64,000 nt of DNA from Actinomadura alba (GCF_014323705.1 NZ_JABVEC010000001.1:434001-498000), one strand, 5' to 3'. Numbered from the stretch's first letter, positions 20,368 through 28,141 are shown. Numbers and translations: made by a program. The notes: generated from the letters alone by a model not told the origin.

Positions 20368-22131
20368 GTGTTCTCTTCCCGCAGTCCTGCCCGCGCTCGC
20401 CCCTTGCTGATCATCGCCACCGTCTTCGCCGTGCTCGCCTCCTATCTCGCCGTCACCCCCGTCTCCGGGTCCGCGGCCGCGCCCGTCTGCGATACGGCCA
20501 ACGCCGCGCAGGGCAAGCCGGTCACCGCCTCGTCCAGTGAGAACGCCGGCTTCGGCCCGGCCTCCGCCGTGGACGGCAACGGCGGCACGCGCTGGTCCAG
20601 CGGCTTCAGCGATCCGCAGTGGATCCAGGTCGACCTCGGTTCGTCGGTGCCGGTCTGCGGCGTGACACTGACCTGGGAGGCCGCCTACGGCCGGGCCTAC
20701 CAGATCCAGGTGTCCGACAACGCCTCGGCCTGGACCTCGATCCACTCCACCACCACCGGCGCCGGCGGCACCGAGACGCTGACCGTCTCGGGCACCGGCC
20801 GCTACCTGCGCGTGTACGGCACCCAGCGCGCCACGCAGTACGGCTACTCGCTCTGGGAACTCGCCGTCCGCACGGTCACCGACGGGGGGACCACCCCACC
20901 CCCGTCGGGCGACGACGTGCTGCTCTCGTACGGCCGTCCGGGCGCGGCCTCCAGCTCGCAGAACGACGGGAACTGCGGCAACTGCCTGCCGGCCCGGGCG
21001 TTCGACCGCGACCCCGCGACCCGCTGGGCGACGAGCTCCACGACCGGCTGGACCGACCCGGGCTGGATCTACGTCGACCTCGGCGCGACCGCTCAGATCC
21101 ACCGGGTCGTGCTGCAGTGGGACCCCGCCTACGCCACCGCCTTCCAGCTCCAGACCTCGGCCGACGCCGCGAACTGGACGACGATCTACTCGACCACCAC
21201 CGGCACCGGCTTCCGGCAGAACCTCACCGTGAACGGCACCGGCCGCTACGTCCGGATGTACGGCACCAAGCGGAGCGGGGCGTACGGCTACTCGCTCTGG
21301 GAGTTCCAGGTGTACGGCACCGGCGGCGCCCCGATCACCCCGCCGCCGCTGCCGCCCGACCCGCGCGAGCCGCCGCAGCTGGTCTGGAGCGACGAGTTCA
21401 ACGGCGCCGCCGGCACCAGGCCGGACGCCGCCAAGTGGCAGCCCGAGATCGGCCCCGGCGTCAACAACGAGTTGCAGTACTACACCAACAACGACAACGC
21501 GTCGATGGACGGCGCCGGCAGCCTCGTCATGGAGGCCCGCAGGCAGGCGACGGCCGGCTCGGCATGCCCGCGCGACCCGATCAGCGGTAGCACCACCTGC
21601 CAGTACACCTCGTCACGGCTCAACACCTACGGCCGGTACACGTTCACCTACGGCCGGGTCGAGGCGCGGATCAAGGTCAGCGGCACCACGGGCCTGTGGC
21701 CGGCGTTCTGGCTGCTCGGCGCCGACTTCTTCAGCCAGGGCCGGCCGTGGCCGTACGTCGGTGAGATCGACATCATGGAGCACATCGGCCGCGAGCCGGA
21801 CAAGACCTACTCCACGCTCCACGCCCCGGCCTACTTCGGCGCCGGTGGGTTCGGCTCGTCCCTCACGCTGCCGGGCGGCGACTGGGCCGCCGCCTTCCAC
21901 ACGTACGCCGTGGACTGGAACAGCTCCGGCATGAGGTTCACCGTCGACGGCAACGTCGTGCACACCGTCGACCGCGCTTCGCTGGAGGCGACCCGCGGGC
22001 CCTGGGTGTTCGACCACCCGTTCTTCATCATCCTCAACAACGCCGTGGGCGGTGACTGGCCCGGACCGCCCAACGCGTCCACGGTGCTCCCGCAGCGGAT
22101 GCTCGTCGACTACGTCCGCGTCTACCAGTGA
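20368..22131 (+). CDS. Secreted GH16 beta-glucanase with two discoidin (F5/8C) domains
   Basis: A 587-residue exported enzyme. A signal peptide (about 1-36) is followed by two F5/8C/CBM32-type domains (about 40-170 and 187-317), a Pro-rich linker and a C-terminal GH16 domain (about 340-587). The catalytic signature is GEIDIMEHIG with E466 nucleophile, D468 and E471 acid/base; the Met inserted in the motif is typical of laminarinase-type GH16, which cleave beta-1,3- or mixed beta-1,3/1,4-glucan. GTG 20368 has GAGGAG 5 nt upstream. It is the first gene of the cluster, with a strong hairpin directly after its stop, so it may be made in larger amount than the downstream genes. Confidence 0.92.
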   Translation: MFSSRSPARARPLLIIATVFAVLASYLAVTPVSGSAAAPVCDTANAAQGKPVTASSSENAGFGPASAVDGNGGTRWSSGFSDPQWIQVDLGSSVPVCGVTLTWEAAYGRAYQIQVSDNASAWTSIHSTTTGAGGTETLTVSGTGRYLRVYGTQRATQYGYSLWELAVRTVTDGGTTPPPSGDDVLLSYGRPGAASSSQNDGNCGNCLPARAFDRDPATRWATSSTTGWTDPGWIYVDLGATAQIHRVVLQWDPAYATAFQLQTSADAANWTTIYSTTTGTGFRQNLTVNGTGRYVRMYGTKRSGAYGYSLWEFQVYGTGGAPITPPPLPPDPREPPQLVWSDEFNGAAGTRPDAAKWQPEIGPGVNNELQYYTNNDNASMDGAGSLVMEARRQATAGSACPRDPISGSTTCQYTSSRLNTYGRYTFTYGRVEARIKVSGTTGLWPAFWLLGADFFSQGRPWPYVGEIDIMEHIGREPDKTYSTLHAPAYFGAGGFGSSLTLPGGDWAAAFHTYAVDWNSSGMRFTVDGNVVHTVDRASLEATRGPWVFDHPFFIILNNAVGGDWPGPPNASTVLPQRMLVDYVRVYQ

Positions 22132-22136
22132 TCCCA

Positions 22137-26600: not shown

Positions 26601-28141
26601 CGCTCACCAGGCGGACCTTCCTCGGAACCGCGCTCGCGGCCGGTGTCCTCTCGTCAGTGCGCGTTCCCGCGGCGCTCGCCGCCGAGCGGCTGCCGCTGTC
26701 CGTGGCGAACGACACCGGCCGCTTCGCGAGCGGCTCGATCTGGATGTACGTGGTCGGCAGCGACCTCACGACCGGGCAGCAGGGCTACGTACGGGGCGAC
26801 GGTACGTTCGTCCCCGCCTCCCCCGCGCTCAACGGGCCCGATGGTTACGCGGACCTGTCCGTGCCGATCACCGCGCCGCCGCCGAGCCTGCCGCACATGT
26901 CGGGCCGGATCTACTTCTCGATCGAGCAGAAACTGAAGTTCCGGGTCGTCACGGACGGGGGCGGGCGGTCGGCATTCCAGTACCCCGCCGGCTGGGTGTC
27001 CGCGGACCCGAGCTACCCGGTCCTGCACGACTGCGTCGAGTTCACGTTCGGCCCGGGCGGGATGTTCTGCAACACGACCATGGTGGACATGCTGAGCATC
27101 CCGATGGCCATCCGGCTCGTCGGAGCCCAGAACCAGACCACCGGCACGTTCAAGGCCGGTGGCCGCGCGCGCGTGTTCGAGGCGCTCAGGGCGCTGCCCG
27201 ACTTCCGGCGGCTCATCATCGGCGACGACCTCCGGGTGATCGCTCCTGGGCACGGCATCAACGCCGGCCTGTTCGCACCGGACTATCTCGCGCCGTACAT
27301 CGACGAGGTGTGGGCGAAGTACCGCACCACCGACCTGAGCGTTCGGATCAACGCGACCACCTACACGGCCCGGGTCCAGGGCGACCTGCTCACCTTCGGC
27401 GGCGGGGTCGCGGCGTTCCGGAAGCCGACCACCAAGGACGTTTTCTTCTGCGACGGGGCGCTGGGCGCGCCGAACGACGGGCGGACCGGCCCCGTCGCGG
27501 CCGTGCTCGGCGCCGCGTTCAACCGCGCCGTGCTGCGCGACCATGCCGCCCAGCCGACGACCGACCCGGCGCTGTACTACCGAACGCCGCTCACCAACCA
27601 CTACTCCCGGGTCATGCACGAGAACACCATCGACGGCCGGGCGTACGGCTTCGCCTTCGACGACGTGCTCGACTTCGCCTCCTACATCCAGGACCTGGCA
27701 CCCACCTCGTTCACCGTGACGCTGACCCCGTTCGGCGGCGGGGGCGATGACCCCACGTTGCTGTCCGCGGGACGCCCCGCCACCGCCTCCTCCACCGAGG
27801 GGGCGGGTCTCGCGGCCGGCAACGTGGTCGACGGCAACGCGGGGACGCGCTGGTCGTCGGCGTTCGCCGACCCGCAGTGGGTATCGGTCGACCTCGGCTC
27901 GGCCCGCACGGTGAGCCGGGTGCGGCTGCGATGGGAGGCGGCCTACGCGAGGGCGTACCGGATCGAGACCTCCACCAACGGCACCGCCTGGTCGACCGTC
28001 CACAGCACGGCGGCGGGCGACGGCGGGACCGACGACGTCACGTTCCCCGCCGTGGCGGCCCGGCATGTCCGTGTGTACGGCACCCAGCGCGCCACCCCCT
28101 ACGGCTACTCCCTCTGGGAGATGGAGGTGTACGGCACCTGA
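26597..28141 (+). CDS. Secreted GH64 beta-1,3-glucanase with F5/8C domain
   Basis: A 514-residue exported enzyme. The N-terminus MTLTRRTFLGTALAAG has a twin-arginine signal. Residues about 30-385 match GH64 (thaumatin-like fold) beta-1,3-glucanases: SGRIYFSIEQKLKF, HDCVEFTFGPGGMFCNTTMV, GAQNQTTGTFKAGGRA, and FCDGALGAPND. These enzymes release laminari-oligosaccharides from long beta-1,3-glucan such as fungal walls. A discoidin domain follows (about 388-514). Start overlaps the ThuA stop as ATGA. Tat export here contrasts with the Sec-type signals of the other three cluster proteins. It is the last gene before the convergent ROK regulator. Confidence 0.92.
   Translation: MTLTRRTFLGTALAAGVLSSVRVPAALAAERLPLSVANDTGRFASGSIWMYVVGSDLTTGQQGYVRGDGTFVPASPALNGPDGYADLSVPITAPPPSLPHMSGRIYFSIEQKLKFRVVTDGGGRSAFQYPAGWVSADPSYPVLHDCVEFTFGPGGMFCNTTMVDMLSIPMAIRLVGAQNQTTGTFKAGGRARVFEALRALPDFRRLIIGDDLRVIAPGHGINAGLFAPDYLAPYIDEVWAKYRTTDLSVRINATTYTARVQGDLLTFGGGVAAFRKPTTKDVFFCDGALGAPNDGRTGPVAAVLGAAFNRAVLRDHAAQPTTDPALYYRTPLTNHYSRVMHENTIDGRAYGFAFDDVLDFASYIQDLAPTSFTVTLTPFGGGGDDPTLLSAGRPATASSTEGAGLAAGNVVDGNAGTRWSSAFADPQWVSVDLGSARTVSRVRLRWEAAYARAYRIETSTNGTAWSTVHSTAAGDGGTDDVTFPAVAARHVRVYGTQRATPYGYSLWEMEVYGT

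Follow-up and report, generated by a model that had tools for sequence, protein, structure and literature searches.

ThuA and ThuB of rhizobia function in the catabolism of trehalose and keto-sugars. Actinobacterial GH16 and GH64 genes are described in a LacI-regulated context with the palindromes TGAGAGCGCTCTCA and GGAGAGCGCTCTCC (Anderson et al. 2012, PMC3377646), such sites lying ahead of GH16 genes in Catenulispora and, in Streptosporangium, ahead of a LacI gene and two CBM32 proteins (PMC3377646). Actinobacterial discoidin domains of the type considered below have been described as chitosan- and fungal-wall-binding (PMC4663542), and the discoidin domain of a Paenibacillus GH16 enzyme binds chitin and lichenan and raises antifungal action (PMC2789033). 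For soluble quinoprotein glucose dehydrogenase (sGDH), His144 was named catalytic, and Arg408 and Lys377 bind the carboxylates of PQQ (PMC6881789). The locus analysed here lies in a window of 64,000 nucleotides, the whole stretch of Actinomadura alba DNA under study. LeuC of this genome is 90% identical to that of Actinoallomurus purpureus, which makes a close relation of the organism to Actinoallomurus probable. The locus has the following features.

18979..19974, minus strand: repressor of the LacI family, encoded divergently to the operon and probably its local regulator (Pfam LacI and Peripla_BP_3 on the open reading frame 18979-20034)
20045..20056, no strand: operator-like palindrome GAGAGCGCTCCC
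20145..20156, no strand: operator-like palindrome GAGAGCGCTCTC
20328..20339, no strand: operator-like palindrome GGGAGCGCTCTC, ending 28 bp upstream of GH16
20368..22131, plus strand: GH16 gene, predicted secreted endo-β-1,3-glucanase, two N-terminal CBM32 (discoidin) domains followed by GH16 (Pfam)
22138..22175, plus strand: strong hairpin in the GH16-GSDH gap, which may act as an attenuator or a processing site
22211..25048, plus strand: GSDH gene, putative sugar dehydrogenase, GSDH six-bladed propeller with PKD, CBM6 and C-terminal CBM32 (Pfam)
24662..25045, plus strand: CBM32 of the GSDH protein, 96.6% DNA identity to the ThuA CBM32
25041..26600, plus strand: ThuA gene, ThuA with CBM6 and C-terminal CBM32 (Pfam, 276 bits)
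26214..26597, plus strand: CBM32 of the ThuA protein, closest solved relatives 4zy9 and 2rv9
26597..28141, plus strand: GH64 gene, predicted secreted β-1,3-glucanase, GH64 with C-terminal CBM32 (Pfam, 314 bits)

Gene models and Pfam agree on the gene set given in the preliminary description, GH16, GSDH, ThuA and GH64 in a row, and the Pfam domains of all four products score far above cut-off. With start codons refined to ATG 22211 for GSDH and GTG 25041 for ThuA, the last three genes overlap, as had been claimed: by 8 bp between GSDH and ThuA (25041-25048) and by 4 bp, ATGA, between ThuA and GH64 (26597-26600). The 79-bp gap between GH16 and GSDH contains a hairpin with a perfect stem of 16 bp (folding z-score of -3.1, with no shuffled version among 200 reaching its stability). 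The earlier assignment of all four products to secretion agrees with their N-termini, which by eye are signal-peptide-like, Sec-looking in three cases and of Tat type (TRRTFLG) in GH64.

Both hydrolases are predicted to cut β-1,3-glucan. The GH16 protein carries the catalytic EXDXXE motif as EIDIME, and its top PDB matches are β-1,3-glucanases, the best being 2hyk (E 1e-63). The GH64 protein, the single member of its family in this genome, matches the laminaripentaose-producing β-1,3-glucanase 3gd0 (E 1e-58); a Glu/Asp pair 16 residues apart, which we take to be catalytic, is conserved in that alignment.

A common binding domain, the discoidin domain reported previously on all four products, was recovered in each as Pfam F5/8C. 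GH16 has two CBM32 domains at its N-terminus; GSDH, ThuA and GH64 have one each at the C-terminus. The 96.6% DNA identity between the GSDH and ThuA copies reads as a recent duplication or gene conversion, and the GSDH and GH64 copies are 79% identical, so the domain was probably copied inside the cluster. The closest solved discoidin domains are DD1 and DD2 of a Paenibacillus glucanase/chitosanase (4zy9, 2rv9), the relation to 4zy9 being close (E 4e-41 over 125 residues). This match to chitosan-binding relatives suggests the fungal wall as the target of the CBM32 domains. The Paenibacillus IK-5 glucanase/chitosanase and Paenibacillus LamA resemble the locus in this respect, as glucanases with wall-binding CBM32 domains and, for discoidin domains, the closest solved ones; unlike the four-gene locus, they are single multidomain enzymes without a redox partner.

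The region between LacI and GH16 holds three palindromes of the form GRGAGCGCTCYC. Sites of this form number 13 in the 8.4 Mb genome, against 2 for the reversed control. Nearly all the remaining ones read GGGAGCGCTCCC, sites of the known CelR/CebR type, and these lie in this genome mostly beside GH9, GH10, GH12 and GH48 (cellulase-type) genes or sugar transporters. The GAGAGCGCTC(T/C)C type is confined within the genome to the present locus, bar one intragenic site. We compiled a named set of 80 GH64 loci (L044-L123) from a scan of GTDB genomes; in 68 of the 79 testable ones a palindrome precedes GH64, or its tandem GH16 partner, by at most 500 bp, and only 7 sites occur over the remaining 1.44 Mb. 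This distribution indicates that the palindrome marks a β-1,3-glucanase regulon, and makes GAGAGCGCTCTC a candidate operator of a β-1,3-glucan regulon across actinomycetes. A second GH64 set, mostly of same-family relatives, has the palindrome upstream in 27 of 42 loci, although it may have species in common with the named set. Window palindromes of this type sit before GH16 and none directly before GH64; GH64 would therefore need to be read from there, with the divergent LacI as the probable repressor of the operon. At three other loci (L297, L298, L164), large CBM32 proteins of 1,110-1,132 aa are encoded divergently from GH64, with palindromes in between.

With its divergent LacI, shared palindromes and GH16-GH64, the locus has the composition of a LacI-regulated β-1,3-glucanase operon. 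It has in common with the described actinobacterial GH16/GH64 genes the LacI neighbour, the palindrome core, both hydrolase families and CBM32 proteins; it differs by the GSDH-ThuA pair placed between GH16 and GH64, an insertion seen at none of 121 other GH64 loci. The preliminary description had proposed looking for the same four-gene arrangement in other genomes: the full set was likewise found at none of these 121 loci, and a wholly conserved four-gene cluster is rejected. The refuting condition named in that description, a cluster conserved nowhere, does not hold either, as GSDH-ThuA together with GH16 recurs at two loci, L233 and L210.

The GH16-GH64 tandem by itself is present in 8 of the 80 named GH64 loci, and in a relative (L302) we found the uninterrupted operon: LacI, two palindromes and GH16-GH64 with a 24-bp gap, no GSDH-ThuA being present. 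The window LacI is 64% identical to the LacI of L302, also divergent from GH16-GH64, and 46% identical to that of L233. The simplest reading of the window is thus the L302 operon plus an inserted GSDH-ThuA. Accordingly, we lean, with some reserve, towards a LacI-controlled β-1,3-glucan operon that was ancestrally LacI and GH16-GH64, into which a pre-existing GSDH-ThuA module was inserted and given the same CBM32.

The locus L233 (Nonomuraea sp. NEAU-A123) has GSDH-ThuA with a GH16 of the same architecture, two CBM32 followed by GH16 (64% identity). Two palindromes precede this GH16, and a LacI and other CBM32 proteins are encoded nearby; these palindromes lie between ThuA and GH16, so that control of the pair by them is not evident. 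Alongside LacI and five palindromes, the stretch L233:11876-19500 contains GH16, DUF1996, CBM32-DUF1996 and CBM32-GH72-like genes. The GSDH tree places the window, L233 and L210 on different branches (support 0.89 for the window branch, weaker at deeper nodes), so the associations of GSDH-ThuA with GH16 are probably independent; a single shared origin is unsupported.

In the operon that we favour, a sugar signal derived from glucan would release LacI from the three palindromes, which it otherwise occupies. GH16, judging by family and conserved catalytic residues, would cut β-1,3-glucan internally, and GH64, on the same grounds, would free short oligosaccharides. Through their CBM32 domains the four proteins would stay attached to the fungal wall, probably via chitosan or glucan, by analogy with close relatives of measured binding. 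The least certain step of the scheme follows: the GSDH propeller may oxidise either sugar ends or sugars already released, and ThuA may then process the oxidised sugar. Against the operon reading stand the absence of GSDH-ThuA from the 121 other GH64 loci, the mostly unrelated settings of the pair elsewhere and the position of the L233 palindromes. The strong hairpin after GH16, too, could end transcription ahead of GSDH, wholly or in part; we infer co-transcription past it.

The GSDH domain scores 114.6 bits with PF07995 (cut-off 25), and its model (pLDDT 89.5) has soluble quinoprotein glucose dehydrogenase 1c9u as nearest fold (E 7.6e-21). With sGDH and aldose sugar dehydrogenases (1c9u, 2g8s, 3das) it shares the six-bladed propeller and the catalytic His and Arg-Asn: His150, Arg244 and Asn245, invariant in 19 of 19 homologues, align with sGDH His144 and Arg228-Asn229. 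Right before the catalytic His stand vicinal cysteines (SCCHVGG), retained in most homologues and possibly forming a vicinal disulphide. The GSDH protein is unlike the solved enzymes in not conserving the arginines and the lysine for the PQQ carboxylates, in belonging to a genome without pqqC and in its extra PKD, CBM6 and CBM32 domains. The R-x-R of the solved enzymes, in which Arg406 also binds a PQQ carboxylate, aligns with L-V-M (Leu for Arg406, Met for Arg408); arginine occurs at these positions in none of the 19 homologues, and the Lys377 equivalent is not conserved. Another GSDH of this genome (L042) retains R-L-R. The score with NCBIfam TIGR03606 is 40.1 bits, far below the cut-off of 434.55. 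No match to pqqC (TIGR02111) was obtained in this genome and two genus mates; it exceeds the cut-off in 10 of 150 relatives and is absent from all 17 genomes with at least five ThuA matches.

The name 'PQQ-type' dehydrogenase used previously thus holds for fold and family only, and as a statement on the cofactor it is doubtful despite the fold and the catalytic His-Arg-Asn. A propeller that is not a PQQ dehydrogenase at all, working by another mechanism or only binding sugar within a non-oxidative pair (e.g., for lactone or keto-sugar turnover), is the strongest competing account and falls only just short of being probable. The replaced arginines, the unconserved lysine, the low TIGR03606 score and the distribution of pqqC favour it, as does a structure match to HHIP, which has the same fold and is not an enzyme. 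The invariant catalytic His and Arg-Asn speak against it, the genome is 93.5% complete, and PQQ uptake from outside as well as other modes of binding are possible: E. coli, which lacks PQQ synthesis, relies on environmental PQQ, and fungal AA12 enzymes bind PQQ partly via other residues (PMC6881789).

The partner protein is a clear ThuA (model pLDDT 94.4; nearest folds the ThuA-like 4jqs, E 2.5e-18, and 4e5v). It shares its domain with rhizobial ThuA, and a Gfo/Idh/MocA partner of ThuB type lies beside many related pairs; unlike the rhizobial proteins, the window ThuA is predicted to be secreted, is fused to carbohydrate-binding domains and is paired with a propeller, and none of the genes seen at the window locus is of Gfo/Idh/MocA type. 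This genome has eight ThuA loci, with GSDH fused or adjacent in all but one by Pfam and in all by direct comparison. Of 73 loci with strong ThuA matches, 17 have a GSDH fusion and 51 an adjacent GSDH on the same strand; in 2 it is near, and in 3, two of them at contig ends, it was not seen. GSDH-ThuA is a generic and very common pair in many contexts, and so strict a partnership (68 of 73 loci fused or adjacent) indicates that the two proteins probably act together. The window pair has the domain order (GSDH-PKD-CBM6, then ThuA-CBM6), the adjacency and the secretion-type N-termini of these widespread actinomycete pairs and fusions, whose annotations read 'PQQ-dependent sugar dehydrogenase' and 'ThuA-domain protein'; it differs from them by the CBM32 on both proteins, the glucanase operon and the glucanase-type palindromes. 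A literature search returned nothing usable linking ThuA with PQQ dehydrogenase, DUF1080 or GH64, nor on 3-keto-glucoside lyases.

Neighbours of the pair vary. Gfo/Idh/MocA and TIM-barrel isomerase-like genes lie beside it in 24 of the 73 loci, mostly within a single conserved operon of Streptomyces type. At L247, L254, L262, L270 and others, and at L230 and L231, this operon encodes a ribose-type binding protein, Gfo/Idh/MocA, a TIM barrel, GSDH and ThuA, which is often fused, followed by an inositol-phosphate-synthase-like protein and further genes; it looks like an undescribed sugar pathway. Pairs in L228 and L245 are linked to EboC/EboE-like genes, and ROK-family regulators recur beside others (L211, L212, L213, L215, L216, L221). 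Glycoside hydrolases adjoin the pair as GH16 in two of the 73 loci (L210, L233), GH64 in none, CBM32-GH99 in L259 and GH5 cellulase in L252; the recurrence of GH16, 2 loci out of 73 with the window not counted, exceeds a guessed chance level by no more than a modest margin.

As the pair is generic and mostly away from glucanases, its substrate is not readable from this one neighbourhood, and a GSDH-ThuA that shares only its location with the glucanases and works on a different sugar, as in its many other contexts, would account for these counts. We consider this unlikely in view of the shared CBM32 with near-identical GSDH and ThuA copies, the overlapping genes, the glucanase-type palindrome in front of the operon and the origin of the GH16 association on separate GSDH branches. 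An antifungal weapon more than a feeding system, with wall-anchored glucanases lysing fungi and the redox pair damaging the wall or making peroxide or acids, would suit discoidin domains of the chitosan/fungal-wall type and the antifungal effect of such a domain on GH16 (PMC2789033), but it is improbable to a like degree, since sugar-type control by LacI and membership of a glucanase regulon agree just as well with nutrition and no sign of a peroxide-making oxidase was seen.

The coordinated attack on β-1,3-glucan proposed in the preliminary description therefore stands in one part: the palindromes, the L302 operon, the gene overlaps and the CBM32 on all four proteins support, by inference, one regulated unit aimed at β-1,3-glucan or the fungal wall, to which the four proteins are probably targeted. 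Conservation of the four-gene set and use of PQQ found no such support; the proposed oxidation of released sugars outside the cell and the role of ThuA are uncertain. The locus suggests that glucan cutting is coupled to chemical modification. A bolder proposal, which we regard as quite improbable at present, makes GSDH and ThuA a unit of two proteins outside the cell: with a cofactor or site that is not standard, it would oxidise sugar units within polysaccharides, and the oxidised sugar would then be cleaved or rearranged. Hydrolases would thereby gain a general oxidative helper, which actinomycetes would plug into different polysaccharide systems, here the operon for fungal-wall glucan.

For this GSDH subfamily, the label 'PQQ-dependent' rests on the fold and not on cofactor-binding residues. 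The GAGAGCGCTCTC palindrome marks GH64 β-1,3-glucanase genes across actinomycetes. Finally, a single locus ties GSDH-ThuA, a very common uncharacterised pair, to one particular polysaccharide and one particular regulator, which would give the pair a concrete substrate to test.
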